Positions 8,920 to 42,551 of a stretch of 42,551 nt of DNA are shown here, one piece after another. Where the stretch lies: contig JAFLCC010000023.1 in assembly GCA_017302835.1 (NCBI GenBank), positions 1-42,551 on the forward strand, written 5' to 3'. This stretch comes from Deltaproteobacteria bacterium. Lineage in GTDB: Bacteria > Bdellovibrionota > Bdellovibrionia > Bdellovibrionales > Bdellovibrionaceae. Position 1 is the stretch's first letter, and the number at the start of each line of letters is the position of its first letter. The position numbers and the translations under genes are program-made. The notes under the pieces are model-generated. The model was not told the origin of the DNA and ran no database searches. It saw only the letters and a list, made by a program, of their open reading frames with translations.

Positions 8920-10281
8920 ATGTCTAATTCTCATCAAAAATCATCTCAAAAGTCATCGAGAGACGTTGTAATCGTTGAGGGGCTGCGAACTCCTTTTGTT
9001 AAATCTGGCGATAAATTATCCTCTGTTCACCCTGCTGATTTAGGACGAGTCGTCCTTAAGGAGGTTATCGCTCGCACTAACTTGAACGTAAATGAAGTGG
9101 ATGAGGTGATTATTGGAAACACAGGAAATCCTGTGGATAGTGTGAATATTGCTCGCGTGGTGGCTCTCAGTGCTGGGATTTCACAAAAAACTTCAGCCTA
9201 TACTGTCCATCGAAATTGCGCTTCCGCTTTAGAAAGCATATCCAATGGTTTTGAAAAAATTAGATCGGGCACGATGGATGTCGTGGTTGCCGGTGGGACT
9301 GAAAATATGTCACAAATGCCAACCTTATTACCAGGTAAGATTCAAAAAATATTTAATGAATTATTTAAGGCGAGGGGGCCCAAACAAGCTCTGCCCCTGC
9401 TGTGGAAATTATTGAGAGCGGATTTAAAACAAATCAAAGCCTTGCTCACAGGAAACATGAAAGATGAGTATTTCCCCGTCATCTCTGTCATGCAAGGTCT
9501 GACCGATCCTTTTGTGGGCATCAACATGGGACAGACGGCCGAAATTTTAGCAAAAGAATGGGGGCTGTCACGAAGAACCCAAGACGAGTTTGCACTCAGA
9601 TCCCATCAATTGGCAGCAGGAGCTAAGGACAAATTTAAAGAAGAGATAGCGGCGCTGTCATTGCCTCCAGATTTTAAAGAAACTATTGTCGAGGACATTG
9701 GCCCGCGAGCCAACCAAACACTTGAAGCGCTTCAGAAATTAAAACCATTTTTTGATAAAGAAACGGGGACGATCACAGCTGGCAATTCTTGTCCCATTAC
9801 CGATGGGGCGGCGATGGTCTTGCTCATGTCTCGAGCTAAAGCGGAAAGCCTAGGGTATAAACCCGTGGCTCAAATTCGATCCTATGGCTTTGCGGGTCTT
9901 GAACCTGAACGGATGGGTCTTGGTCCCGTGTACTCTTCCCCCCTTGCATTGAAGCGGGCAGGTTTGACGATGAAGGATATGGGGCTTGTTGAGCTGAATG
10001 AGGCCTTTGCTGCGCAAGTCCTGTCCTGTCAAAAGGCCTTTGATTCGGATGAGTTTGCAAAAAACAAATTAGGCCTTTCGGGCAAAGTGGGTGAGATACG
10101 TAACGAGATTTTAAATGTGAATGGCGGCGCCATTGCCCTTGGTCATCCTGTAGGGGCTACGGGAACAAGGTTGGTTGTGACCTTGATGCGAGAAATGAAA
10201 CGTCGACAGGTTCAGTTTGGTTTAGCGACCTTGTGCATAGGCGGAGGTCAGGGCGGTTCCATGATTTTGGAACTTGAGTGA
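8920..10281 (+). CDS. fadI: Acetyl-CoA acyltransferase (thiolase), beta-oxidation beta subunit
   Basis: A 453-residue thiolase that cleaves 3-ketoacyl-CoA to acetyl-CoA. The nucleophilic cysteine is Cys100 in VHRNCASALESI. The C-terminal catalytic motifs NGGAIALGHPVGATGTR and LCIGGGQGGSMI supply the His and the second Cys. The internal insertion (KARGPKQALPLLWKLL and following) fits the long, FadI/HADHB-like type rather than short biosynthetic thiolases. ATG 8920 follows CAAGGAGCG; an upstream in-frame ATG at 8872 lacks a site. The partner subunit is the next gene, 69 bases downstream. Confidence 0.93.
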   Translation: MSNSHQKSSQKSSRDVVIVEGLRTPFVKSGDKLSSVHPADLGRVVLKEVIARTNLNVNEVDEVIIGNTGNPVDSVNIARVVALSAGISQKTSAYTVHRNCASALESISNGFEKIRSGTMDVVVAGGTENMSQMPTLLPGKIQKIFNELFKARGPKQALPLLWKLLRADLKQIKALLTGNMKDEYFPVISVMQGLTDPFVGINMGQTAEILAKEWGLSRRTQDEFALRSHQLAAGAKDKFKEEIAALSLPPDFKETIVEDIGPRANQTLEALQKLKPFFDKETGTITAGNSCPITDGAAMVLLMSRAKAESLGYKPVAQIRSYGFAGLEPERMGLGPVYSSPLALKRAGLTMKDMGLVELNEAFAAQVLSCQKAFDSDEFAKNKLGLSGKVGEIRNEILNVNGGAIALGHPVGATGTRLVVTLMREMKRRQVQFGLATLCIGGGQGGSMILELE

Positions 10282-29959: not shown

Positions 29960-30051
29960 GCCCCGGTGGCGAAATTGGTAGACGCACAGGACTTAAAATC
30001 CTGAGCTTCGTTAACACGGGCGTGCCGGTTCAAGTCCGGCCCGGGGCACCA
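29960..30051 (+). tRNA. tRNA-Leu(UAA)
   Basis: Acceptor GCCCCGG pairs with CCGGGGC; discriminator A and CCA are encoded. The anticodon is TAA in ACTTAAAA. It has a class II long variable arm and a standard T arm (GGTTCAAGTCC). The 3' end is overlapped antisense by a recombinase gene, marking it as the attachment site of an integrated element. Confidence 0.97.
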
Positions 30052-31721
30052 TTTCCAACAGTACTCGAACCCACACGCCGGGTCGGTACGAATGGGATCA
30101 GTTTTCCTTCTTTTTCCTTAAAATTTAAATTTTCGTTTCCGGGTGATGAGGTTCCATCAGTTCCGGTGGCTTTGTATTGCTCTTTGGTTGGTGCGTACAT
30201 GCCGATTTTGATTTTCATCGGGTGAATCTCGATGAACTTCACTAGGTTAGTAAAGATAGGTCGTTGTTTTTCTTTTGGCGCAGCTTCTAAATTATTGAGA
30301 GTTCGCTCGATTTTGGCTTTTAAGCCGTCGTGGTCAATGTCTTGGCCGTATAAATCCATTTCTTTTGTTTTTAGTTTTTCTTTCGCTAATTTAGCTTCGG
30401 TGAGTTTTTGGTTCAGTTGTTTTATTTGCTCATAGAAAGCTTGTGCCGGGACATCTGACGGCAGTTCAGATACCCGTTGAACCAAATTGTTTATCTTTTT
30501 GGATATGTTTTGAATCTCTTGATCCAGTTGCTTTGTTCGGGTTTGAACTTCAGGCAATTCGCTTGATGTTTTTGATCGGTAGATCTCGATCCAATTTTCT
30601 ATGAGATTTGGATCGTTCAAAAGTAATCGCAGTGATTTCGTCACGATCTCCTCAAGTCGCGGGGCTCTGATATTTTTGACTTGGCATTGATGAACGGTTT
30701 CCTTAGTGAAAGGATTCTTGATCTGCGCGTGGCCGTAATAATGATGCTTTTCTTTTCGCCCAGTTCCTGACTTTCCTCCGAGGGATTTTCCACACTCGCC
30801 ACATTGAATAAGCTCAGTAAGGGGAAACGGGTATACTTTCCAAGACTCAGGCTTGTATCTATTTTTATTTTTTGCCAAACGCTCTTGGACTTTTCGAAAT
30901 ACATCTTCGTCAACAATGGCCGGCCAAACAGACTTGATTTTCTCAACAGATCCGTCTTTGTGTCGTAGTTTTTTTATTCCGATGTAAGCTTTGTTCGTTA
31001 GCAAAGACTGTAACGTATCCACCGAAAAGACCTTACCGCCACGATCAATTCCATGTTTATTCGTATATTTTTTATTGTGTATTCCAAGCTCAGTAATGGA
31101 AGCTTGAGTTTTACGAACTGTTTCCTGTTCAAGAAATATTTCAAATATTTCCCTAACTGTTTTAGCTTCCTCCTCATTTACAGCCAGTTCAGCTTTATTT
31201 TTTGGATTTCGGTCGTATCCCAGCGGAATCGTGCCGCCATTCCAAAGGCCGCGTTTACTGCGAGATAGCCAGTTTGCTGAAATTCTTTCAGAAGTTTGTT
31301 TACGTTCGTACTGAGCATAGTTGATCAAATTAAAAACCATCATCTCGCCGGATGCGGTTGTTGTGTCAAAATTCTCACGAAGCGTAACAAAGCTTGCTTT
31401 GTGATCTTTTAGTAAATCCCAGACTTCACAGAAATCTTTAATATTTCTGTTCAAACGAGAAAGCTCCGTTGCCACTATCAAATTGATTCGCCCAAGTTTA
31501 ACATCTGTGAGCATTCGTAAAAACTCAGGACGGCCTTTCATATTCTTAGCGGACTTTCCTTCGTCACAATAAATATCAACGAGTGTACCCCAATTAGATT
31601 CACGTTTGTTTTGAAATTCAATATATTCAAGTAAACGATTTTTCTGTGACACCAATGATCCATCTTGAATACGAGCCTGCTCCTCAGTCGATACCCTGAT
31701 GTAAATTCCAACACGTTTCAT
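30030..31721 (-). CDS. Large serine recombinase (site-specific integrase)
   Basis: A 563-residue recombinase. The resolvase domain (about residues 1-150) has the nucleophile Ser11 in IRVSTEEQ, then TELSRLNRN. A recombinase domain follows (LGYDRNPKN, LLTNKAYIG), then a zinc ribbon (IQCGECGKSLGG, and HQC later) and a long coiled coil (residues about 390-480). This is the layout of large serine integrases. The last 22 bases, including the stop, lie antisense in the tRNA-Leu 3' end. The ATG overlaps the stop of a 55-aa ORF. The element should be integrated at the tRNA; the other junction is not identifiable in the window. Confidence 0.92.
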   Translation of the reverse strand: MKRVGIYIRVSTEEQARIQDGSLVSQKNRLLEYIEFQNKRESNWGTLVDIYCDEGKSAKNMKGRPEFLRMLTDVKLGRINLIVATELSRLNRNIKDFCEVWDLLKDHKASFVTLRENFDTTTASGEMMVFNLINYAQYERKQTSERISANWLSRSKRGLWNGGTIPLGYDRNPKNKAELAVNEEEAKTVREIFEIFLEQETVRKTQASITELGIHNKKYTNKHGIDRGGKVFSVDTLQSLLTNKAYIGIKKLRHKDGSVEKIKSVWPAIVDEDVFRKVQERLAKNKNRYKPESWKVYPFPLTELIQCGECGKSLGGKSGTGRKEKHHYYGHAQIKNPFTKETVHQCQVKNIRAPRLEEIVTKSLRLLLNDPNLIENWIEIYRSKTSSELPEVQTRTKQLDQEIQNISKKINNLVQRVSELPSDVPAQAFYEQIKQLNQKLTEAKLAKEKLKTKEMDLYGQDIDHDGLKAKIERTLNNLEAAPKEKQRPIFTNLVKFIEIHPMKIKIGMYAPTKEQYKATGTDGTSSPGNENLNFKEKEGKLIPFVPTRRVGSSTVGNGAPGRT

Positions 31722-31885
31722 GCGGCCTCCTTGGTAACTGTTGTATCGTCGGCCTGATTTCCCAACTCGTCAATTTCAAGCAACGCCTTTACCAGTCGCA
31801 CAATCATCATTTCGTACTCAGTTTGTTTTAAATTCACTTTTACAACTTCGACTTCATAATCATCTAAGTCATATTTTTTCAGCAT
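31718..31885 (-). CDS. Small protein coupled to the recombinase
   Basis: A 55-residue acidic frame (MLKKYDLDDYEVEVVKVN and so on) whose TGA overlaps the recombinase ATG (ATGA). The frame is closed immediately upstream by TGA. The strong GGGAGGTG site a few bases earlier fits an 8-codon leader frame (MKIKNYEC) starting about 25 bases upstream, whose stop overlaps this ATG region. So leader, small ORF and recombinase appear chained by overlapping stops and starts. It could be a recombination directionality or regulatory factor; that is inference. Confidence 0.55.
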   Translation of the reverse strand: MLKKYDLDDYEVEVVKVNLKQTEYEMMIVRLVKALLEIDELGNQADDTTVTKEAA

Positions 31886-31947
31886 TCATAATTTTTTATT
31901 TTCATCACTGCACCTCCCTTGTTACCTCATATAATTTCAAGATCAGA

Positions 31948-32043
31948 GCCACGTCTCATCACCCCGGTTCCTGACCACCTCCAACCACTCGTTGGGTGGG
32001 GGTGGTCAGGAAAAAACCCGTTTTAGGGGTGGTGAGACGTGGC
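31948..32043. repeat. Triple-nested 96-base hairpin near the recombinase
   Basis: Outer arms 31948-31965 and 32026-32043 pair over 18 bases with one wobble (GCCACGTCTCATCACCCC against GGGGTGGTGAGACGTGGC). Inner arms CCTGACCACC (31970-31979) and GGTGGTCAGG (32001-32010) are perfect. The innermost CCAAC/GTTGG (31981-31985, 31991-31995) closes a 5-base loop. Such a structure may be an att-site component, an origin or a regulatory RNA fold. Confidence 0.88.
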
Positions 32044-32161
32044 GGCGCTTAACTGCTGAACTTTGTTTTGGAATAGCGTTTTTCAAAATGGTGAAATTTG
32101 AAAAATTATATTCAGATTGCAGTCTCATTATCGTCTCGTTAAATTTAACAGATGTATAAAA

Positions 32162-32193
32162 CCCAGTGGTGGCGGAGGTGCGCCAACACTGGG
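32162..32193. repeat. Strong GC-rich hairpin
   Basis: CCCAGTG pairs with CACTGGG, and inside it TGGCG pairs with CGCCA around GAGGTG. It shares the CCAGTGG/GGCGG words with the next hairpin. Confidence 0.85.
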
Positions 32194-32239
32194 CATGGAG
32201 ACTGTCATAGAAATTAAATATTTATCACTTTTTTAGAGA

Positions 32240-32279
32240 CTGGCGATCTTCCGCCACTGGTGAATAAGAAAATCGCCAG
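32240..32279. repeat. Perfect 8-bp inverted repeat
   Basis: CTGGCGAT (32240-32247) and ATCGCCAG (32272-32279) are perfect arms. The loop holds CCGCCACTGG, a near-complement of the CCAGTGGTGGCGG in the preceding hairpin, so the two hairpins can also pair with each other. Confidence 0.8.
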
Positions 32280-32376
32280 GCACTTGATTAGAATTAAAAT
32301 CAGCAAGGCTAATTTCATTGGACCTGTACGGCGCCAAAAGCGAAGAGTAAATAGGAAACTCACTGAAATTATAAAA

Positions 32377-34263
32377 TCAATTCAATCTTAAACCGACCAA
32401 ATTTAAAAGTTCCATTTTTTCCGCAATACTGACATTTCCATTCTTTTCAGCTAACGCTATTGTCGACTCAATATCAGATTTATGTTTAGCCTCGAAAATT
32501 CGATCACTTAAAATGACAGATTTCATCCAATTGTATGAGTTCCCAACCGCACCACGTGCCCCAATTCTTAAAAGGTCGTTTGGCGATAAGTTTCCAGCGT
32601 TTTTAATTTTCAGAAGCCTCTCGAGATTTTGTTGCAGCGACACCGATTTATAGGGCGCAAACATTATTATTGACCAAAACGCACTATTTTTTCCTTCTAA
32701 AAAAATTGTAACAAGACCTGTGTTTAAACGTTCATCAGCAATTTTCTTAATTAACAAAGGTCCGATTTCATTAGCGGCTTTGGTCATCGAATAGAAACCA
32801 TTGAGCCCTGTTTCAGCGAGCGGAAATTGGGCGATATATGGTGGAACCTGGGAAAGTTCTCGTAAAATTAAATCAACAAATAAGATATCAATTTGTTCTT
32901 GAAACGAGCGAAGATAGGGTCTTAGCTTAGTATAAATATCTATTATTGCAGTAATATCTAGCTCAGTTAAATTTTTCTTTTCTGGAACTAAATTCGAGTT
33001 AATCTTGGACCCGAAAAAAAGACTCCAAAATTCGATTTTCTGAAACACTGGAGGAAGGGTATATGTATTTCCTTTCGATCCAGTTACAGCATTTTGCCAA
33101 AGACCTAACAAATAATACTTTTTGCTTTTTATAATGTTCGTAACTGCAAGGTCTAAATCTTGCGTGCTTAGATTGTTACAAAGAGATAGCTTCTCCATTA
33201 TTTTTCCGGAGTGCACCTGTTGAGCACATACCCCTTCAGGAAAACTAATTTCCCTTAAAACCTCAATCGTTGGAATTGGTTGGTAGTTGAAATGTTCGAG
33301 CGACATTGCTATCTTAACAGCTCGGAGACCATCGAGCATTCCTGCGTCGTCTTTAGAAGACGCTGAAAGTACTCTATTTAAAATCGCAAGTTGTATTTCT
33401 CCAGACAGTTTCTCATAAGTGGAATTCACCGAAAGAATTTCTCGAACGTTTGCCGCGACCGCGCCAACTAGCGGACCAGCGAAACTAGTTCCACTGGAAA
33501 GCTGACCTTTTTTATCACTGCAAAGACCTTTTGGATTGTACGATAAGGTATATATTTGATCTCCTGGCGCAGAGATTTCTCCAATATTCGAATGTTCGGC
33601 AAGGCCCCCCGTAAAGCGTGTAGAAGCCACCCTTAGATATCCATCGTCAATATCGGCATTTTTAATTAGAAAGCGATCGCGGGCAGACTCATTTCCAGCT
33701 GACTTTATTATCAAACAGCCCTTACTCTCTAAAATCTTAATTGTATCCTTAAATGCGACCTCGTCTTGGGGTGTGTAAAAATTTGGATCTGATCCATGGC
33801 TTGCATTAATGATTTTGTAGCCTCGAGCGCAGGCATCTATATAAGCGTCGCGGGCAATCTTTGCATCTATACCACCTTTGGATCCAGGTATAGATACACT
33901 GTAGATACCAATTTGCCCGCCTTGATAAAGTCCAAAATAGGCGGCATAAATGGATGCCACTGAATAGCCGTGGGTAGTCTCTGCCTCGTCAGGTAAAACC
34001 AAGCCGGCACCCAGTGAATAATATTTAATTTGAGATTTTAGTTCAGGTAAATAAGTTTTTCTAACTCCAGAATCCACTATGGCGATTTGCGTTTTTTCAG
34101 CAAGCGGGTGACTTGTTCTCCAATTTCCCATTGCTTCAACCATGAGGTTTCCAGAAATAGCCTCGTTAGCCCAAAACTTGTCCTGTGTGCACGATTCATT
34201 ACCACTGGCCAAACAAATGGAAGTAGTATAAATTGCGATAACTGCAAATATGCTTTTTTTCAT
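32377..34263 (-). CDS. Secreted subtilisin-like serine protease (S8)
   Basis: A 628-residue protein with a signal peptide (MKKSIFAVIAIYTTSICLAS). The S8 triad is visible: Asp64 in IAIVDSGV, His98 in THGYSVAS and Ser260 in SSGTSFAGP, with the oxyanion Asn191 in KSAGNES. There is no clear inhibitor prodomain before the catalytic domain. The C-terminal 330 residues have no recognised domain. It lies next to the recombinase in the island, so it may be cargo. Role in prey or host protein digestion is possible but inferred. The 314 bases before the stop side hold the hairpin cluster. Confidence 0.9.
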   Translation of the reverse strand: MKKSIFAVIAIYTTSICLASGNESCTQDKFWANEAISGNLMVEAMGNWRTSHPLAEKTQIAIVDSGVRKTYLPELKSQIKYYSLGAGLVLPDEAETTHGYSVASIYAAYFGLYQGGQIGIYSVSIPGSKGGIDAKIARDAYIDACARGYKIINASHGSDPNFYTPQDEVAFKDTIKILESKGCLIIKSAGNESARDRFLIKNADIDDGYLRVASTRFTGGLAEHSNIGEISAPGDQIYTLSYNPKGLCSDKKGQLSSGTSFAGPLVGAVAANVREILSVNSTYEKLSGEIQLAILNRVLSASSKDDAGMLDGLRAVKIAMSLEHFNYQPIPTIEVLREISFPEGVCAQQVHSGKIMEKLSLCNNLSTQDLDLAVTNIIKSKKYYLLGLWQNAVTGSKGNTYTLPPVFQKIEFWSLFFGSKINSNLVPEKKNLTELDITAIIDIYTKLRPYLRSFQEQIDILFVDLILRELSQVPPYIAQFPLAETGLNGFYSMTKAANEIGPLLIKKIADERLNTGLVTIFLEGKNSAFWSIIMFAPYKSVSLQQNLERLLKIKNAGNLSPNDLLRIGARGAVGNSYNWMKSVILSDRIFEAKHKSDIESTIALAEKNGNVSIAEKMELLNLVGLRLN

Positions 34264-34407
34264 TTTTCACCGTCTTCGAGTAAGTATCTATGTATAGCAA
34301 AAAAACTAAGCCGCTACGACTGTTTTGATTTAGACGAAGTGACCATTTAGGGAAATCTACTCGGGTGCGGTCAGATTGTTTATTAGGAGCTGTTTATTCA
34401 ACCTGGG

Positions 34408-34710
34408 CTAGCTTGCCTTTAAAAAAGTAAATCCGAACTCGAACTGAGCCCCGCAAGCTGTCGCGATTTTGGATAGGAACGGAATAGACGGTGTTCTTTT
34501 ATCTGATCCACTTTCAAGGCGCGCGATAACACTTTGTGATGTCCCAACCTTTTTCGCCAACTGAGCTTGGGTTAAGTCTGCCTTTAGGCGCGCTGACCTG
34601 ACAGCGAAAGCGATAGCTGTTTTTGAGCTCTCTTCTTCGTAGTGCATACGAACAGTTGGGTCTTTCAGTAATTTTTTGAAAAAGTCTTTTCCTGATTTTG
34701 TGTTTTTCAT
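34408..34710 (-). CDS. higA: HigA-type antitoxin (XRE family)
   Basis: A 100-residue protein with a Cro/C1 helix-turn-helix (LTQAQLAKKVGTSQSVIARLESG, about residues 47-70) preceded by a helical region. It follows the toxin gene with an ATGA overlap, the toxin-first order of HigBA. It neutralises HigB and binds the operator in front of higB. Confidence 0.88.
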   Translation of the reverse strand: MKNTKSGKDFFKKLLKDPTVRMHYEEESSKTAIAFAVRSARLKADLTQAQLAKKVGTSQSVIARLESGSDKRTPSIPFLSKIATACGAQFEFGFTFLKAS

Positions 34711-35042
34711 AATCCTAAAACCTCTTTCATTCTTTTTTCAGCTAAATCCAGATCATTAAGTGGCGTCTTCTGTGTTGTCTTTTTAAAAACATGAAGCCAA
34801 ATCATCGTTTGTCCTTCAATAATTACATAGGCGATTCTAAAACCGCCTCTTGGAGCATTAAACTTTATCTCCCAAAGTTTTCCTCTGAGTGGCTTAAACT
34901 GAACCCTCGGGCAATCTAGACCGTACTTTCCAATACCTTCAAAGACATCAGCAAAACGAGCTTGATCACCTTTAGGTAAATCCGTGATAAAGTCTTCGAT
35001 GGGCGATGAGCCTCTTTTTGAGAGATAGAGTTCAATTTTCAT
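34707..35042 (-). CDS. higB: HigB-type toxin (RelE/Gp49-like)
   Basis: A 111-residue protein of the phage-derived Gp49/HigB type: IEDFITDLPKGDQARFADVF, then FKPLRGKLWEIKFNAPRGGFRIAYV and HVFKKTTQKTPLNDLDLAEKRM are the family pattern, with the basic residues used for mRNA cleavage on the ribosome. It starts at ATG 35042, 10 bases from a perfect palindrome. Activity is inferred. Confidence 0.88.
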   Translation of the reverse strand: MKIELYLSKRGSSPIEDFITDLPKGDQARFADVFEGIGKYGLDCPRVQFKPLRGKLWEIKFNAPRGGFRIAYVIIEGQTMIWLHVFKKTTQKTPLNDLDLAEKRMKEVLGL

Positions 35043-35052
35043 CAGTTTCTAT

Positions 35053-35070
35053 TATAGCCAATTGGCTATA
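35053..35070. promoter_or_regulatory. Perfect 18-bp palindrome, probable HigA operator
   Basis: TATAGCCAATTGGCTATA is a perfect palindrome 10 bases upstream of the higB start. HigBA operons are repressed by HigA at such sites. It also contains TATA-type -10 elements and covers the stop codon of the upstream small frame. Confidence 0.75.
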
Positions 35071-35317
35071 TTTTGCAAGTTTTAATATTTTGCCGAACAA
35101 ATGCCTCAGAGGCTCCAATAGCAAGGGCAACTTTTTTGGATGATCTATACTTTAAAATCAATTTTAGTAGGTCTTGAGGGACCAAAGCCTTTGGTTCGGG
35201 GACTTCCTCGAAGTCAAACTCAAATAAAACTGGCTTCGCCGCCCAAAGCGGTTCTTCTACTTCGGTCTCTCGCGCACCATTTTCGTCCGGAGACGAGGAC
35301 GATGAATCTTTACCCAT
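35066..35317 (-). CDS. Small protein with HTH-like C-terminus
   Basis: An 83-residue frame upstream of higB on the same strand. The N-terminus is Ser/Glu-rich; the C-terminus (LLKLILKYRSSKKVALAIG, then ASEAFVRQNIK) looks like a helix-turn-helix of the kind that reads a short DNA site. The stop lies in the HigA palindrome. No clear ribosome binding site. Possibly a regulator or a cut-off fragment of a larger regulator. Confidence 0.45.
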   Translation of the reverse strand: MGKDSSSSSPDENGARETEVEEPLWAAKPVLFEFDFEEVPEPKALVPQDLLKLILKYRSSKKVALAIGASEAFVRQNIKTCKI

Positions 35318-35334
35318 ACCGAATAGATGTAACT

Positions 35335-35757
35335 AGCAAGGCAGGACGAAGTCTCTGCCTGCGGTCGCATTCAGCAATGGATATGGGTCCGGCAAGGGAT
35401 TCGCTCCACCGGTAAAGCTCACAGCGGTTTTCGCCAGAGCGATTTGGGGGAGCTAAGTAGCTGTGACTGCGTAAAAGCAGGAGACCCCGAGGAACTGTGG
35501 GTTAACGCCAGAAATTTCAGCCTAAACAAAAATTAAACTGTCGACGAAGACGAGTTAGCGGAAGATATCGGTGGCCCAATCTGGTGGTGTAGTGGAAGGC
35601 AATAGTCCGAACTCTTGAGGAGATAGCGAATAGCTCAAGCGGACCCCGGTCTTGTTTAAGGCAGTAGGCGGGAATTTCAAAGATCATTGCCTAGTAAGTT
35701 ACTCCGAACGAAGGACGTAAGAATCCATTTTCAGCCGGTAGGCTGAACAAGGGGAAA
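35335..35757 (+). ncRNA. Candidate large structured RNA (family not certain)
   Basis: No plausible gene spans this stretch, yet complementary arms are dense. They are: GGCAG/CTGCC around GAC-GAA-GTC (35340-35359); GCTC/GAGC enclosing GCG-GTTTT-CGC (35417-35440); GGGG/CCCC (35446-35450 with 35485-35488) closing two small hairpins, AGCT-AAGT-AGCT and CTGC-GTAAAA-GCAG; TCACAGC (35419-35425) complementary to GCTGTGA (35460-35466), a possible pseudoknot; TCCG..CTTGAG with CTCAAG.CGGA (35606-35643); AGGCAGT/ATTGCCT (35659-35692); and TTCAGCC-GGTA-GGCTGAA (35730-35747). Loops are A-rich on the plus strand. An omega-RNA (HEARO, guide RNA of IscB-type nucleases) is my first guess, from a weak resemblance of the CCCCG..GAACTG..GCCAG stretch; an intron-like ribozyme is an alternative. 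Strand and ends are approximate. Confidence 0.55.
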
Positions 35758-35788
35758 ATAATTAAATTTTAATTTAACCTTTGTTGTT

Positions 35789-37083
35789 TTACTTTGCAGA
35801 ACTAACAGTTTGCTCCTGAATAACTCCAGTAGTATCAACTGTTAGTTTTCTTTTTACAATCATCTGATGATTTTCGTGATGAATATCCACACCCAATTTT
35901 TTTAGTTTTCTGACATAGTTTTCTATCTGTTTCTCGACGGGATCACCACGTATATATCCTAAGTCTTTGTATTGAGTATTTCCGCCAAGAACTTTATAAA
36001 TCACTCTAGCAAGTCTATTGGCAATGGCCACTTTGGCTTTGCTGGTGCCAATTCTAGATTGAAGCTTTCGGTATTTAGATCTATAAAAAGACCCTTTTTT
36101 CTGTTTAGCTCCATTGGCAGCTTGTACTAGGATTTTTTTGAAGTGGGGGTTTCCATGTCTACATTTTGCTCTTTTTTTTTACCAGCTGACTCATTATTTC
36201 CACTAGCTACACCCGCCCACGCCGCAAACTTTCTTTCATCTGCAAAGCTGCTCATATCTGCAGTTGCCTCTGCAATGATAGACATCGCAAGGATTTTATC
36301 AATACCTGGAATTTTATCTAATTCCTCTACGAGATGAGCATAGGGAAGTGTTTTTTCCGTTAACTCATTTTCCACATCAAGAATTTGGGTCTGGATATTT
36401 CGATACTGTTTCAGTAATTCATTTAAAACAAAAATATGTTCTTTAGTAAAACAATTGGTTAAGGCTCTAACCGCGTCCTCCTTTCTTTTTATTTTAGTAG
36501 TCACACTTGCTGCTAATGTTTGCGCATTAGTAACACCATCTGCAATCAGATCTAAGATCTTCTTGCCTGCTACTCCGAAGGTGTCTGATACTATCGAGCT
36601 CCATTTAATATTGCCATCTTGAAGAACTTTCTCAACTCGGTTTTTCACTCGTGAAAGATCATCAACCAAATTAGTGCGATGACGGCTCAATAGTCTTAGC
36701 CGTTGGTAAATACCATCTGGAACGAAGGAGGCTCTGATTAAACCAAATCTATGAAGTTCGGCTATCCACTGGGAATCTTTGATGTCAGTTTTCCTGCCAG
36801 GTACATTTTTAATGTGGCTTGCATTTCCAACTATCACCTTCAATCCCATTGGTTCCAAAACATTATAGATTGGCTTCCAATATTGCCCTGTAGACTCCAT
36901 TGCCACATCTTTAACTCCTCGTTGAAGAAGAATTAATCCCATAGCTTTTAAGTCATCTGTCATTGTGGAACACTCAAAATGTTCTGACTTTGGATCTTCA
37001 TTACCATCACCAATTAAAACAGTAATAGCCAGAATATCTTTATGGACATCAATGCCAGCAACGTGGGTTTTTAATGCTTTCAT
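35789..37083 (-). pseudogene. IS110 transposase, split by a -1 shift at an A9 run
   Basis: The N-terminal DEDD domain is intact: Asp12 in AGIDVHKD, Glu in AMESTGQYWKP, two Asp in KTDIKDSQWIAEL. The C-terminal Ser domain starts (FAAWAGVASGNNESAGKKK) and then stops at a TAG near 36127. Reading one base back at nine A's (36172-36180) gives AGKKKRAKCRHGNPHFKKIL and continues to IANRLARVIYKVLGGNTQYK, ending at 35789, a normal IS110 C-terminus. So the gene is whole apart from this shift. It may be inactive, a homopolymer error, or a programmed -1 frameshift at an A-AAA-AAG type site. Confidence 0.85.
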
Positions 37084-37300
37084 GGAACTCTCCTTTGTTT
37101 AAGATAGGGTCTTTTAAAGGAAGAGCATGAGCGGCACCTATAAAATTTGCCTAGCGAAGCCATAGTTTTAAAAATAATAATATCATTGCCCCATACGACG
37201 GTTCTTAAAAGCGCTCACCCGGCCACATTGAACTCCGACCTCAGTCATTACTTCGCAAAAAATAATAACTCCAGCCAAACAAACACCGACCTTGTTATCC
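37084..37300 (-). other. IS110 5' non-coding segment, likely bridge RNA region
   Basis: IS110-group elements encode the bridge RNA upstream of the transposase. The part between about 37105 and 37287 is exactly what is missing from the relic at 4191, which keeps the outer flank and the region right before the ATG. GGAGAG precedes the transposase ATG. I cannot mark the target- and donor-binding loops by eye. Confidence 0.5.
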
Positions 37301-37693
37301 TTTAAAAAACGATTCCTTTTTAAAAGAAGTTCAGATAAAAAAAATAAAAAAATGAATACATGATTAAGATTTGAAAAAATTTCAATTGAAAATAAATATA
37401 TGAAGCTAAGACCACTTACATTCTTGATGGTGGGGCGAAGCTACATGGGCATTGAATACGGGACGAACACCCGGTTCGACCGAACCCGTACTTATGACGC
37501 TATATCAAAAATACATTTTAATTCGAGATGACCATTTGCGGTTCTACGGTTCTAATTGAAAACCTCCTAAATGCGAAAGACCACGAAATCATTAATCATT
37601 TAGAACGATTTGCTAGAAGAAATTACCGCGTAATTTTTACCTTCTTGATACTTTGTTATTCCCCGTATAGTGTCCTAAAAAAAAGGAGTTCTT
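37301..37693. other. IS110 outer flank and intergenic DNA
   Basis: The part up to 37455 is shared with the relic on the left. Just outside lies GGTTCGACCGAACC near 37473, a short palindrome. No gene is supported between there and the secreted protein gene at 37694. Confidence 0.45.
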
Positions 37694-38179
37694 ATGAAAT
37701 TAATTATTGTTAGCGCTATCATGTTATCAGCAAATCTTCTTTTCGGAGCTGCGGAACCAGAATCCATTGTGAACTGTGCTGTTTACTCCAAACTAAACGA
37801 TCAAGATCCTAGACCTGTGAGTATAAAATTGAGATCTTACACTATCAATAGTAACTATGAGGTTGGTATCATTGGCGACGAAACTTGCGCAATCGCAGGA
37901 AAATTTCGTGTGGTTCTAGATCCAACTAATCATGGTATCCGCATTGTTATAGCTGACGTATCTAATTCTGCAGGTCTGGTTAATAAAGCCGCATGCCAAG
38001 ATCAAAACAATCCCCCGATGAACATGGGCATACCCTATTACACACCAATCGTTGCGGCATTGTATCAAAGATTGCCAAAGGACGTAAGTGCGCGCGCAAT
38101 TTCTACTCATGGTTTTACGGGACTGCAATACGTTTACGGACGTAATGGAAAGGGCGAGTTACAGATTTATTGCAATTAG
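37694..38179 (+). CDS. Small secreted protein of unknown function
   Basis: A 161-residue protein with a signal peptide (MKLIIVSAIMLSANLLFGAA) and four cysteines in the mature part (NCAVY, ETCAIAG, KAACQ, IYCN), which could form two disulfides. AAAAGGAG lies 7 bases before the ATG. No family is recognised. Confidence 0.75.
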   Translation: MKLIIVSAIMLSANLLFGAAEPESIVNCAVYSKLNDQDPRPVSIKLRSYTINSNYEVGIIGDETCAIAGKFRVVLDPTNHGIRIVIADVSNSAGLVNKAACQDQNNPPMNMGIPYYTPIVAALYQRLPKDVSARAISTHGFTGLQYVYGRNGKGELQIYCN

Positions 38180-38197
38180 ATAGTACTTTCATAAATA

Positions 38198-38232
38198 TGG
38201 CCCTTAGATTTTTGCTTTTCAAATGAGGGCCA
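38198..38232 (+). terminator. Stem-loop after the secreted protein gene
   Basis: TGGCCCT (38198-38204) pairs with AGGGCCA (38226-38232) across a T-rich 21-base loop, 19 bases after the stop. It lacks a downstream T run, so termination is tentative. Nothing else is recognised up to 38448. Confidence 0.35.
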
Positions 38233-38448
38233 GTTAATCAATCATTCGTAACTACTCTTTACTTCTAAAAAAGTGTTCAGATCGTATAAAATCGATCCTA
38301 AACGGCCCACTGACAAGCCGCGATTGATCGTAAAAAGAAACGAATTTAAGTCGAGATTTTTATTCACATCTTAAATCACTTTGTTTCCCAAAGCGGCTGC
38401 GCTACCATGAGTCAGTAGCCTAAATGACTTAGGACAGGAGCTCGTGTC

Positions 38449-39552
38449 GTGATTCGATGGTTAGGATTGATCTTCATTTTACCTGGTACCGCTTTAGGTA
38501 AATCGGTCGATTGCAGCGTAGAGGTCAATAAAACGAATGACCGACAAATTGACATGGTACTTCCCAGTGGCAACCAGATTTCGGTAGTTGGCCATCGCCA
38601 TGCTAAACGTCAATCAGGCGCATTCGATACCGAATCTGCATTCCCTGCAATCCTGGCTCTTTCGAAACAGGATCTTGCAAAAAATCTTACAAAGGATCCA
38701 TCGTGGCCTCAAAAAATCAAGGAGGCGATCAAAAGCGAGGCGGCCGCGATTAAACAATACAGTGACGATTACAAGAACCTTGAAACGAATCTTGAGCAAA
38801 ACCGTTATGTCGGAGTTGGCATCGAGGTTCCAATAGAAAGGCTGATTTGGAATGCCGAAAACTCCACTAAAATAATCGAAAATTCAAAATTTGCTTTTGA
38901 CATGCTAAAAGTTGAAACCAATTTAAGACAACGCTATAAACTACTTGCCCTGTCTCCACAATTTCTTCTAAAGCAACAACGACCTTCGTTATTTAAAGGG
39001 CGCCAGATTTTTACAGCAGAGCCGACTCAACCAGAAATTAATGACTATAACAAACAGTTCTGTTCAAAAATTCCAAAAGCCAACACACCTAGTGAATTCG
39101 CAAGTTTCGCTGCTTTTACCTCGAGTATACGCGCTCGGTTACCGGATAGAGAGGGTGAAGTGATATCATTTTTCGCTAATGGCGACCCCGTCGAGGATAA
39201 GTTGCTATCCGTAAACCCTATGTTACGAGCAGCTCGATTCAAACCAGCAGAGCTAGCAGCTGAACTACTTAAATCATTTCCTATTGAGATCACAGAAACC
39301 GAAAGAAAACATCTTATGACTTATTTTGAAATAAGGCTTCAGAATGCTAGCCGCTTTGAGGGGTGTTCAGCACGTGATGCTCTAATCGCAAAAAATCTTG
39401 TTCGCCAATCTGACAAAGGCTCAGTGATTAATTTTATTGGGGCAAACCACTTGCCTGCGATAAAATATTACCTAGAGGAAGAATGCAAGAAAATAGTTAG
39501 TGGAAAAGAGCCAGTAAAGAAGGATCTTCCGGTGTCGGCAGGGACACGTTAA
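38449..39552 (+). CDS. Secreted TraB/TIKI-like protein (putative)
   Basis: A 367-residue protein with a signal peptide (MIRWLGLIFILPGTALG). The arrangement resembles the TraB/GumN/TIKI superfamily of putative metallohydrolases: an early GHRHAK (residues 47-52), a Glu in GVGIEVPIE, an ARDALIAKNL motif near residue 320 like the family RN.xM box, and a final FIGANHLPAIKYYL like the GxxH box. It starts at GTG 38449 with GGACAGGAG upstream. The fit is by motif order only, so the family is tentative. Confidence 0.65.
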   Translation: MIRWLGLIFILPGTALGKSVDCSVEVNKTNDRQIDMVLPSGNQISVVGHRHAKRQSGAFDTESAFPAILALSKQDLAKNLTKDPSWPQKIKEAIKSEAAAIKQYSDDYKNLETNLEQNRYVGVGIEVPIERLIWNAENSTKIIENSKFAFDMLKVETNLRQRYKLLALSPQFLLKQQRPSLFKGRQIFTAEPTQPEINDYNKQFCSKIPKANTPSEFASFAAFTSSIRARLPDREGEVISFFANGDPVEDKLLSVNPMLRAARFKPAELAAELLKSFPIEITETERKHLMTYFEIRLQNASRFEGCSARDALIAKNLVRQSDKGSVINFIGANHLPAIKYYLEEECKKIVSGKEPVKKDLPVSAGTR

Positions 39553-39605
39553 CTTAGAACCCCTTTTGCTCACACCCGGTTAGGTTTCAGAGACAAAAAT
39601 TTGTT

Positions 39606-40257
39606 CTAAGATTTTAATGTTGGGCTCGTAGAAAATTCCATGAAAACGTTCACGGATTTTACTGGCCGCAAATCGAGGATACATTCCAGTACCATAACCA
39701 GGCCTCCTAAATAGAAGTGAGAGAATTGACTAGCTAAATTTATGATCTCTGCAATGGGATGGATTTCAGATTTTCTAAGTTGTTTAGGAAAGCCAGTTCC
39801 CTCTGATTTTTCATGGCGCTGAGCAGTAATGCTGAGAATAGCTTCGGGAAATTTTCCATAACGAGCGAGGAGTTCAGCACTTTCAACTGGATGCATCTGA
39901 TACTTTTCAAAATCTTCTTTTGAAAGAGCTTCTGGCGTCGATTTTTTTAACTGTTCATTCAAAGGCATCAAGGCAATGTCGTGAAAAAGTGCTGATGCTG
40001 ATACAATAAATAAAGTGTGTGGCGATGTCCAACTACGGCCTTTGGCGATCATTAGTGAAATGATCGCAGTAGATATATTATGGTTTGTCAAATTGGATTC
40101 TTGATCACACGCACTTTCTAAAAGTTCGACGACATGCAATTCCGGGCATCTCTTTTTCAAAACCGGCTACATCGTTAAAGCTAAGAATTCCAGCCCTCTT
40201 TTTAGATCGTTTCTCAAAAATATGAGGAACCCAAGCAGGAATTACAACGAAGCAACT
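39606..40257 (-). pseudogene. HD-GYP-domain protein, truncated and frameshifted
   Basis: The main frame (to 40160) shows HD-type motifs: NHNISTAIIS, LFHDIALMP, HPVESAELL, and QRHEKSEGTGFPKQL, close to the HD-GYP pattern of cyclic-di-GMP phosphodiesterases (here GTGFP in place of GYP). Upstream, the frame is closed by TAG, but the adjacent frame reads on (PAWVPHIFEKRSKK, then FEKEMPG) and would join as EMPELHVVELLESA if one G near 40143 were removed. That frame ends at a TGA near 40258, so the N-terminal half is missing too. It is a relic unless a sequencing error is involved. Confidence 0.75.
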
Positions 40258-40273
40258 TCAGTTATAATAAGAA

Positions 40274-40633
40274 TTATTTGGAATAAACAAGAGCCTTAAA
40301 TCCGCCCATTGAAAATCGTTTCACATCAAATGGCATTTTAATTCCATCCATTTTCATGCGAGTGTCACTATGAACTTTTGCATTCACAGAAGCTCTGTGC
40401 TTTTTAGACTTAAAGACGACGAAGGCAAGAACAACAGTCTCATCTTTTTTGAGCTTACACAACTTTGGAAAAGTCTGTCCCCAGTTTACTTTTAAATCGT
40501 CCCCTATACATTCGTAGTAATCAAGGGCTCCGTGTTCCATCCATAATTTGCATCCAAGGTTGGCCATTTTCATATATGCTTTTACGTTCTTCTTTTTGAT
40601 TGGTATTAAATAACCATCAACATATTGACTCAT
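40274..40633 (-). CDS. DUF1428 family protein (YbaA-like)
   Basis: A 119-residue cytoplasmic protein with the DUF1428 start MSQYVDGYLIPIKKKN and the later WGQTFPKL and VVFKSKKHR. ATG 40633 is chosen because GAGGAAG precedes it; an earlier ATG at 40648 would add five residues. Function is unknown. It often occurs, as here, with SRPBCC and VOC genes. Confidence 0.88.
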   Translation of the reverse strand: MSQYVDGYLIPIKKKNVKAYMKMANLGCKLWMEHGALDYYECIGDDLKVNWGQTFPKLCKLKKDETVVLAFVVFKSKKHRASVNAKVHSDTRMKMDGIKMPFDVKRFSMGGFKALVYSK

Positions 40634-40736
40634 TTTAATCTTCCTCATTTTTTAAAGTTACTATTGCATAGCCTGCATATTCTTCCACTTAAATTCCAAA
40701 AAAACTGATTGATTAAATTGGCTCATTTTGTTCTAT

Positions 40737-41270
40737 CTACTTCGCAGCTTCAGCGACAGTCTTTAGCTTAGCTAGACCCTTTTCAAATTCACCACCGACC
40801 ATTTTTTCAACGTTCATAATGATACCCATCAGACGAAACAAGAATCCATTGTGCCCATCGACGCTCCGTTTAACTTTTGTAGCGCCATCAACGGGAGTTA
40901 ACGTGACTTCTGCAAGCTGTGACATCTCCATTGGCTTCGTATAGGTCAGTTGCGTTTTTACTGATTTATTAGGAATACTTTCAATGACAACGGCATTGCC
41001 AACACCCATTTTTCCATTGCTATCCCAGCTTGATTTTGAACCAACTCCTTCTTCCGGCCCGGAGTATTGCATTTTCACTCCAGGGTCAGAATCTTGCCAA
41101 GGCATCCAGTCATTCATTTTCTTTGAGTTGTTGATATATGAGAACAAAGCCTCAGGGCTTGCTTGGATGACGATCTCACGTGAAATTGTGCATGCAGAAG
41201 GTTTCAAGGCGACGTAGATTAGAAATCCACAGAGAGCCACGACTGCAACAACTAATATTTTAATTAACAT
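40737..41270 (-). CDS. Membrane-anchored SRPBCC (polyketide cyclase-like) protein
   Basis: A 177-residue protein with one N-terminal helix (ILVVAVVALCGFLIYVAL) and a START-like domain: ISREIVIQASPEALFSYINNSKKMNDWMPW, then a ligand-pocket beta sheet and the terminal helix after MNVEKMVGGEFEKGL. The domain probably binds a hydrophobic ligand; which one is unknown. GGAGGG precedes the ATG. It lies between the VOC and DUF1428 genes in one operon. Confidence 0.85.
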   Translation of the reverse strand: MLIKILVVAVVALCGFLIYVALKPSACTISREIVIQASPEALFSYINNSKKMNDWMPWQDSDPGVKMQYSGPEEGVGSKSSWDSNGKMGVGNAVVIESIPNKSVKTQLTYTKPMEMSQLAEVTLTPVDGATKVKRSVDGHNGFLFRLMGIIMNVEKMVGGEFEKGLAKLKTVAEAAK

Positions 41271-41304
41271 TTTCCCTCCTATGGTTATAAACGAATTGAA
41301 ACTT

Positions 41305-41673
41305 TTATTTCATTGAATGAATACCGATCATGTTACCTTCAGTATCTATAGCAAGTGTGATAAATCCATACTGGCCGATAGACATTTTTGGCTTGTGAAT
41401 TTTGCCGCCTAGTTTAGGAATCATTTTTTCCTCTGTGGCGCAGTCTTCGCTACCAAAGTAAATGATCGTGCTGATTCCGTTTGGAGTGAGTCCATTCATT
41501 CTTACAAGAGAGCCTGAGCAGCCCCACTTATCTGGGTTCGATGGAAAGCCCCACATTTCACCTTCGTGAAATGGCATATGAGAGAGTTTAACTTTAAAAA
41601 GTGACTCATAAAACGCCTTAGCTCGGTTCATATCAGACACGTAAATTTCAAACCATCAAACTGGATTTTGCAT
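41305..41673 (-). pseudogene. VOC/glyoxalase-like protein with an in-frame TGA
   Basis: A small VOC-fold protein (MNRAKAFYESLFKVKL, then FPSNPDKWGCSGSLV and GQYGFITLAIDTEGNMIGIHS). The natural start is ATG 41673 with GAGGAG before it; it reads MQNPV, then TGA (41656-41658), then WFEIYVSDMNR, exactly the usual start of this family with one codon turned into a stop. A GTG at 41640 could still start a protein lacking the first strand. No selenocysteine machinery is seen. It may be inactivated or a sequencing variant. Confidence 0.8.
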
Positions 41674-41703
41674 ATAAACATCTCCTCGTGTGGATATTAG
41701 TAT

Positions 41704-41721
41704 ACATACTATTTAGTATGT
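41704..41721. promoter_or_regulatory. 18-bp palindrome, probable TetR operator
   Basis: ACATACT and AGTATGT are perfect 7-bp arms around ATTT. It lies in the gap between the divergent VOC operon and the TetR gene, where it could control both. Confidence 0.7.
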
Positions 41722-41744
41722 TGTCAACAGATCTCATTTTTGAT

Positions 41745-42389
41745 ATGCTTGAATATATGAAGGCAAAACGTCGCTCAGCAAAGAATTCTCGTAACCTTGA
41801 ACGTTCTAGAAAGGAAATTCTAGATGCGGCGTTTGTCGAGGTCTTTACCAAGGGATTTCAAGGCGTAAGTATTGACGATATCGTTGCAAAAACAAATTTA
41901 ACGAAAGGTGCGTTTTATCATCAGTTTCCAACAAAGCTCGAAATGGGTTATGCTTTGGTTGACGAAGTCATCAAACCAATGATCATCGATCGATGGATTA
42001 CACCTTTAGAAAATTACGAAAATCCTTTGGATGGAATTTTGGCTCAAATGAAGACCTTAATAGGTGATTGCGATCCAGTTCATTTGAGGCTTGGATGTCC
42101 ATTAAACAATTTGGTTCAAGAGATGTCTCCCGTTGATAGAGAATTTCACGAAAGGCTACAGCTTGCATTGAAACTGTGGATTGATGAATTGGAATCTCAA
42201 CTTAAGCGCGCTAAAAAGTCGGGGTATTTAAAGCCAGACGTCAACACAAGACATGTCGCCCACTTTGTGGTCATGGCTCACGAAGGTTTCTACGGTTTGC
42301 TAAAGGGCCTGAATGATCCGCGAGCTTTCTCAGCTCTATATTCCTGCTTAAGACGATATTTTAACACCTTACTATTCAATCAAATATAA
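41745..42389 (+). CDS. TetR/AcrR-family transcriptional regulator
   Basis: A 214-residue regulator. The N-terminal DNA-binding domain is clear: SRKEILDAAFVEVFTKGFQG, then VSIDDIVAKTNLTKGAFYHQF with the recognition helix. The C-terminal domain is a helical ligand domain (LRLGCPLNNLVQEMS) of the group linked to small-molecule sensing. ATG 41745 and ATG 41757 are both possible starts; neither has a strong site. It probably represses the divergent VOC-SRPBCC-DUF1428 operon and itself; ligand unknown. Confidence 0.92.
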   Translation: MLEYMKAKRRSAKNSRNLERSRKEILDAAFVEVFTKGFQGVSIDDIVAKTNLTKGAFYHQFPTKLEMGYALVDEVIKPMIIDRWITPLENYENPLDGILAQMKTLIGDCDPVHLRLGCPLNNLVQEMSPVDREFHERLQLALKLWIDELESQLKRAKKSGYLKPDVNTRHVAHFVVMAHEGFYGLLKGLNDPRAFSALYSCLRRYFNTLLFNQI

Positions 42390-42550: not shown

Positions 42551-42551
42551 T

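Follow-up and report, generated by a model that had tools for sequence, protein, structure and literature searches.

What is a cluster of strong hairpins doing between an integrase gene and its neighbouring cargo? The question is raised by some 330 non-coding bases of the window, by which we mean the whole 42,551-nucleotide stretch of Bdellovibrionaceae DNA analysed here. A sequence-only reading had noticed three hairpins there and suggested an att region, a replication origin of an excised circle or an RNA regulator. We conclude that the first hairpin is very probably an oriT of the MOBC kind, situated on an apparently relaxase-less integrative element with its own serine integrase (a candidate iOriT). 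Family membership, structure, covariation, linkage to MOBC relaxases and a nic motif match all support this assignment.

Three hairpins and one widespread family

All three structures lie where they had been reported, and their non-coding placement between integrase and cargo was confirmed. On one side are the integrase gene (30030-31721, minus strand) and, directly upstream of it, a small ORF of 55 residues (31718-31885, minus strand; similar ORFs occur in loci L026 and L028), on the other a subtilase gene (32377-34263). Hairpin 1 (31948-32043, plus strand; 96 nt) consists of nested stems and far surpasses the other two in folding strength. Folded as RNA (31940-32050, plus strand) it reaches -72.5 kcal/mol against -39.0 +/- 3.9 for 200 shuffles (z -8.63), with z -8.03 on the minus strand; folded as DNA, z is -10.16 on the plus and -8.13 on the minus strand. 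On both strands, and for RNA and DNA alike, no shuffle out of 200 matches this folding. The DNA fold of the plus strand is a three-way structure in which an 18-pair outer stem (arms 31948-31965 and 32026-32043) encloses the apical stem together with a side hairpin of four pairs, AAAA-CCCG-TTTT (32013-32024), placed between apical and outer stems. The 5' arm of the apical stem, TTCCTGACCACCTCCAACCA (31968-31987), belongs to the conserved core and the 3' arm is TGGGTGGGGGTGGTCAGGAA (31993-32012); CGTTG lies at 31990-31994, and CGTWG is found in 16 of 16 aligned copies.

The other two hairpins fold less strikingly. Hairpin 2 (32162-32193, plus strand) has a z of -3.84 relative to shuffles, while hairpin 3 (32240-32279, plus strand), despite perfect 8-bp arms (CTGGCGAT/ATCGCCAG), is rated much weaker since its z is only -2.48 on the plus and -3.17 on the minus strand. 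The proposal that they could pair with each other was borne out, the hairpin 2 word CCAGTGGTGGCGG (32163-32175) being complementary to CCGCCACTGG (32251-32260) in hairpin 3. Of three close relatives examined, L026 and L027 retain both hairpins with changed base pairs (and CCGCCACTGG and AAAATCGCCAG of hairpin 3 as such), and L028 does not. The picture of one array of three equals is not supported: hairpin 1 alone is widespread, hairpins 2 and 3 being limited to two of the three relatives.

The spread of hairpin 1 was assessed in several ways. A blastn search with the region in 59 genomes, the window's own included, found the hairpin in 15; the list had 16 rows, of which one (G021) was excluded as its fold is not the hairpin. 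A further copy is present in the own genome, at C7:151169-151266 within an ICE-like element. Scanning 84,980 GTDB genomes with a core pattern gave 36 loci which, by name, comprise 32 from Bdellovibrionota groups (to which, we assume, those named Oligoflexia and Bacteriovorax belong), two named as Proteobacteria only, one Actinomycetota MAG and one Spiroplasma. On the Spiroplasma contig (L053) the core hairpin at 6926-6968 lies near a ParA-like gene, as judged by reading. The core pattern had no match in viral contigs, nor did the window DNA match phage or plasmid sequences by blastn. A covariance model matched 56 of 140 genomes of the order at E <= 0.001, a count which takes in weak matches (E > ~1e-8) as scored by the model.

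Throughout the family the outer stem varies in sequence but stays complementary, a small side hairpin is present, and the apical stem is conserved and carries TG/GTC (here and below the slash marks a nic, printed or predicted). When 16 copies were aligned, 12 columns proved invariant, including CGT.G and the TG..CA arms; this alignment excludes the gammaproteobacterial copies, among which CloDF13 and Enterobacter do not have CGTWG at that place. Open reading frames cross the hairpin in several ICEs (L030, L032-L037). A protein-coding reading was nevertheless dropped because the frame shifts among copies.

Covariation in related elements had been named as a check on the hairpins, and for hairpin 1 it is clearly visible. 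Alignment A4 contains 12 distinct sequences, reduced from 15 copies; only copies whose gap is 2 nt and whose side loop is 13-14 nt were admitted, two copies not being parsed. Within it 99.1% of cells are paired, compared with 85.8% in shuffles; both sides are altered in 21 of 39 pairs, against 10.1; and the covariation score is 0.427, against 0.156 for shuffles and at most 0.118 for slid versions, although these shuffle counts are not probabilities since the hairpin copies are related. All three pairs of helix 3, the side hairpin, are altered on both sides. Outer arms pair to 98.5% within one copy and to only 71.7% between copies. The outer stem thus retains its pairing while its sequence drifts.

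Transfer genes and a predicted nic

A gene of one of two relaxase-like families, F0 or F18, lies no more than 200 bp from the hairpin in 28 of the 36 pattern loci. A relaxase-like gene also stands beside 14 of 20 covariance-model hits, places chosen from the hit list of which two (L139 and L153) were already among the pattern loci. Three of the eight pattern loci with no near relaxase (L066, L068 and L054) end about 100 bases or less from the hairpin at a contig end, and two (L048 and L080) have an integrase only. This leaves L045, L053 and L060, three of 36, where the relaxase neighbour is absent without truncation as an explanation, as it also is at L145 among the 20 model hits. Searched with PF13814, a model that also misses F0 genes, the L045 genome shows matching genes at other places, and the genomes of L053 (Spiroplasma) and L060 gave none. 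A PF13814 search of the window's own genome likewise gave no match.

The one F18 protein scanned for it matches Replic_Relax (PF13814) at E 1e-8, and all four scanned for NF041423 (MobC, replication-relaxation family) match it, one of them at 1e-16. The F0 proteins are more distant: two members had no match in a direct Pfam search, and matches to NF041423 are weak (E about 0.001). Profile alignment nevertheless connects F0 with F18 (probability 94.6, E 7e-8), and F0 keeps an HD..E..PD..ExE..K pattern. The F0 structure is modelled confidently (mean pLDDT 88), with helices making up its N-terminal part and a mixed domain containing strands after it; Foldseek found no PDB match to it at E <= 0.001, and weak matches only, which included restriction enzymes and winged helices of the MarR type. 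One account treats PF13814 and MobC as equivalent (PMC5357655), and MOBC relaxases are described elsewhere as PD-(D/E)XK nucleases (PMC5714925, PMC12857230).

At the ICE loci, genes for a TraG/VirD4-type coupling protein and TrbI-, CagX- and VirB4-like proteins follow next to F0. Relative to F0 genes the hairpin is downstream; relative to most F18 genes it is upstream. As a family, then, the hairpin is linked to MOBC relaxases, while the element around the window copy shows none.

Plasmids provide further counterparts. A similar hairpin stands beside MOBC relaxase or coupling-protein genes in 3 of 3 Bdellovibrio, 8 of 8 enterococcal and 4 of 5 gammaproteobacterial plasmids examined. In pBdHAGR1, pBdHAGR4 and pBdHAGR5 of Bdellovibrio HAGR004 it lies just upstream of an F18-like gene; these three plasmids (L093, L094 and L095) are typed as non-mobilizable in PLSDB, yet carry both an F18-like relaxase gene and the hairpin. 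The MOBC-type plasmid pAM373 has its strongest inverted repeat between the relaxase gene and the TraG-like gene, and this repeat contains TTCCTGACCA..CGTTG..TGGTCAGGAA. In seven further enterococcal records, whose relaxases are 42-74% identical, the strongest repeat within the fetched stretch has a TGACCA..TGGTCA core; the eight examined, two of which share the same hairpin, come from 282 plasmid records with a pAM373-like relaxase. As in the window, the core-bearing hairpin of these enterococcal plasmids (pAD1 oriT2 type) lies inside an outer stem.

Among the gammaproteobacteria, plasmids of Enterobacter, Klebsiella and Acinetobacter and CloDF13 have an apical stem resembling TGACCACC, with one mismatch in Acinetobacter and in CloDF13, and the outer stem is also present in the Enterobacter plasmid and CloDF13. 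Three of these hairpins were found with the covariance model and a core search and that of CloDF13 by reading its sequence, the inverted-repeat scan having missed them through its span and scoring limits. The fifth plasmid, a Vibrio MOBC plasmid, yielded no such hairpin.

CloDF13 is the MOBC prototype of Gram-negatives. Its oriT resembles hairpin 1 in having outer stem, side hairpin and apical stem, differing in a longer apical loop that lacks CGTTG. The 3' arm of its apical stem contains GGGTGGTCGGG (9752-9762), which occurs exactly once in the plasmid and which we take to be its mapped nic; in 2001 Nunez and de la Cruz reportedly placed this at GGGTG/GTCGGG. The window counterpart, GGGTGGTCAGG at 32000-32010 on the plus strand, lies in the same arm and reads GGGTG/GTCAGG. 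By this motif comparison a plus-strand cut in hairpin 1 is predicted between 32004 and 32005. Like MOBC oriTs, hairpin 1 is thus a long inverted repeat containing the nic motif. The nic of ICEKp1, typed C1, is printed as GGTTG/GTCGCG (PMC7755788). CloDF13 also differs in carrying its own MOBC gene (PMC12857230), the window element having no relaxase gene in view.

Hairpins 2 and 3 may have a part in the same process. The words TGGCG and CGCCA occur six times in 32044-32376 (cluster at 32170-32336, strand unassigned), a number reached by none of 2000 shuffles (mean 0.46). A bind site with direct repeats has been described for TraX of pAD1 (PMC12857230), and after this example we looked for five direct repeats about 70-120 bp from the nic. 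pAM373 has five 12-bp direct repeats 69 bp beyond its predicted nic; the window has no such five-fold repeat but, instead, the inverted TGGCG/CGCCA cluster. Our guess would be that the cluster is an analogous bind site. The direct-repeat form is not taken here as defining MOBC oriTs, since in the source consulted it is described for one prototype (PMC12857230). Hairpin 2 itself is possibly a site for an accessory protein, or terminator-like on the minus strand.

A tentative splint role for the stems

The position of the predicted nic in the middle of the apical stem suggests a speculative idea, to which we give rather less than even credence: the hairpin might act as a self-splint for a relaxase that does not become covalently bound to DNA. 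On completion of transfer, both ends of the strand would re-pair through the apical and outer stems, leaving a plain nick for ligase. Such a role would explain why complementarity, rather than sequence, is conserved in the outer stem. Rejoining without a covalent intermediate has been suggested for CloDF13 (PMC9299015). When the two ends were re-annealed in silico, energies of -16.9 to -31.7 kcal/mol were obtained in 14 of 14 cases, each better than all 20 of its shuffles and than the mean of swapped ends; 12 of the 14 beat every swapped end, the exceptions being L048 and L051.

Were the splint real, it would give MOBC origins a single structural signature in at least three phyla (Bdellovibrionota, Bacillota and Pseudomonadota). 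In the titles and opening lines of abstracts surveyed, a comparison outside which stand Francia and Clewell 2002, Francia 2013 and Nunez and de la Cruz 2001, we found no description of the hairpin family, either in Bdellovibrionota or across phyla. The Bdellovibrionota are a group known for predators, and a signature of this kind would expose in them a hitchhiking layer of mobile islands. Transfer origins are generally regarded as diverse: according to one source, oriTs of unrelated elements do not show extensive sequence similarity (PMC6414798), and another notes that elements with only an oriT are hard to find as their motifs are often unknown (PMC11389934). A structured signature common to MOBC elements of several phyla would allow computational detection of such elements, and would open to testing the way in which MOBC systems rejoin DNA without a covalent intermediate.

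The window element, its possible helpers and other explanations

The integrase of the window has Resolvase, Recombinase and Zn_ribbon_recom domains and a reading frame open over 563 residues, so that the element has an integrase of its own. The 3' end of the gene lies inside a tRNA-Leu(taa) gene (29960-30051, plus strand), probably the left boundary of the element: synteny with relatives reaches the tRNA gene and stops there. The DNA beyond the tRNA-Leu gene in genome G001, used in a search for an empty site, has no match in the own genome. Among 15 ORFs from 30030 to 42389, on a contig that ends at 42551, none was seen for a relaxase, coupling protein or T4SS component, an absence judged on the contig only. 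With a serine integrase present and none of these genes on the contig, we consider the element a candidate iOriT. More generally, serine recombinase genes end in or adjoin a tRNA gene (Leu, Arg, Val, Met, Gln, Pro or Phe) in 14 of 20 loci scanned: L025, L031, L033, L034, L035, L040, L041, L057, L075, L138, L150, L152, L153 and L155, where L057 and L153 are the same place.

Seven further carriers are relaxase-less, three in the same genus (L048, identical with L026; L080, identical with L027; and L028) and four elsewhere in the order (L141, L150, L154 and L156). Relaxase-less elements have their hairpin some 220-350 bp upstream of where the integrase gene starts. Some of these carriers may be decayed, since L080 has just a fragment of the integrase gene, L156 has it split in two, and in L048 and L028 it runs off the end of the contig.

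A relaxase-less element would require a helper. Excised, the window element could have its hairpin core recognised by the MOBC relaxase (PD-(D/E)XK type) of a co-resident ICE or plasmid, which would nick the plus strand in the apical stem at GGGTG/GTCAGG. The helper's coupling protein and T4SS would then export the single strand, the paired stems of hairpin 1 would bring both strand ends together again, and the element's integrase would reinsert the transferred DNA. The window core does match that of a possible helper, being 96% identical to that of a same-genus ICE (L034); since it is also 94% identical to cores of ICEs from two other genera, genus matching is suggestive only. L150 and the same-genus ICE L149 share one and the same 41-nt core but have different outer stems, while the best-matching ICE core for L141 belongs to another genus. 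The own genome has a single F0-like relaxase and a single PF02534 coupling protein as far as found, both in the C7 ICE. The core of this ICE reads TG/GAC where the window has TG/GTC, a difference at the base pair adjoining the predicted nic, and it may therefore not be the helper; none with an identical nic motif was found in the own genome.

Known systems offer partial parallels. The MGIs of SXT/R391 ICEs are, like the window element, integrase-bearing islands with only a helper-like oriT (PMC5704250), but have tyrosine integrases and MOBH helpers in place of a serine integrase and MOBC-type oriT. Staphylococcal oriT mimics of the pWBG749 family are also relaxase-less and carry oriT copies matched to helpers (PMC8136818), but are plasmids of another host phylum and use another conjugation system. 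Streptococcal IME class 8 shares the combination of a serine integrase with a MOBC module (MobC, VirD4) (PMC5357655) but, unlike the window element, encodes its own relaxase and coupling protein.

The alternative that survives best, though we consider it improbable, is that the window element is an ICE which has lost its relaxase and whose hairpin 1 is out of use. The failure to find a helper of identical nic motif in the own genome would fit such decay, as would the IS110-type transposase gene inside the element (36127-37083) and the broken integrase genes of some relatives. On the other hand, the window integrase is open over 563 residues, same-genus copies keep their pairing through base changes and other integrase-bearing elements show the same layout.

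Control of the integrase or a transfer operon by a structured RNA (attenuator, terminator or sRNA), along the lines of the RNA regulator once suggested, appears very unlikely. Hairpin 1 does fold strongly as RNA, two U-G pairs in the apical stem favour the plus strand and many ICEs have the hairpin within a co-directed gene run. Yet no Rfam family scored above its gathering threshold in the window or four related loci, the only matches at the hairpins being chance eukaryotic ones below it; no T tract follows hairpin 1; the position relative to F0 and F18 genes varies, plasmids having other gene orders again; and the apical sequence matches a DNA nic motif.

We give as little weight to the view that a MOBC-like initiator uses the site as a rolling-circle-type origin for replicating the excised circle, with transfer secondary or the site shared. 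MOBC proteins are discussed as multifunctional initiators (PMC5714925) and a stem-loop fits strand nicking. The earlier suggestion came close in pointing to an origin-like DNA-processing site. The evidence fits a MOBC conjugative transfer origin instead, the family's neighbours being coupling protein and T4SS genes, the motif match being to transfer origins and no initiator gene being seen in the window element. Least probable is an attachment or accessory site of the serine integrase: the short distance to the integrase start in relaxase-less elements would suit it, but attachment sites of an integrated element are at its ends whereas hairpin 1 is internal, and the family also occurs on plasmids and beside conjugation genes with no such integrase adjoining (L039, L042, L043, L044, pBdHAGR1/4/5 and pAM373), which leaves the att proposal unsupported.

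The cargo of the window element has features of its own. The subtilase-family protein encoded next to hairpin 3 has 628 residues and gives weak PADLOC matches to subtilase and IetS models. Further on, a Gp49-like and an HTH gene (34408-35042) form a toxin-antitoxin-like pair, and a similar-looking Gp49-like/HTH pair, recognised by reading only, lies near the hairpin of the relaxase-less L141.
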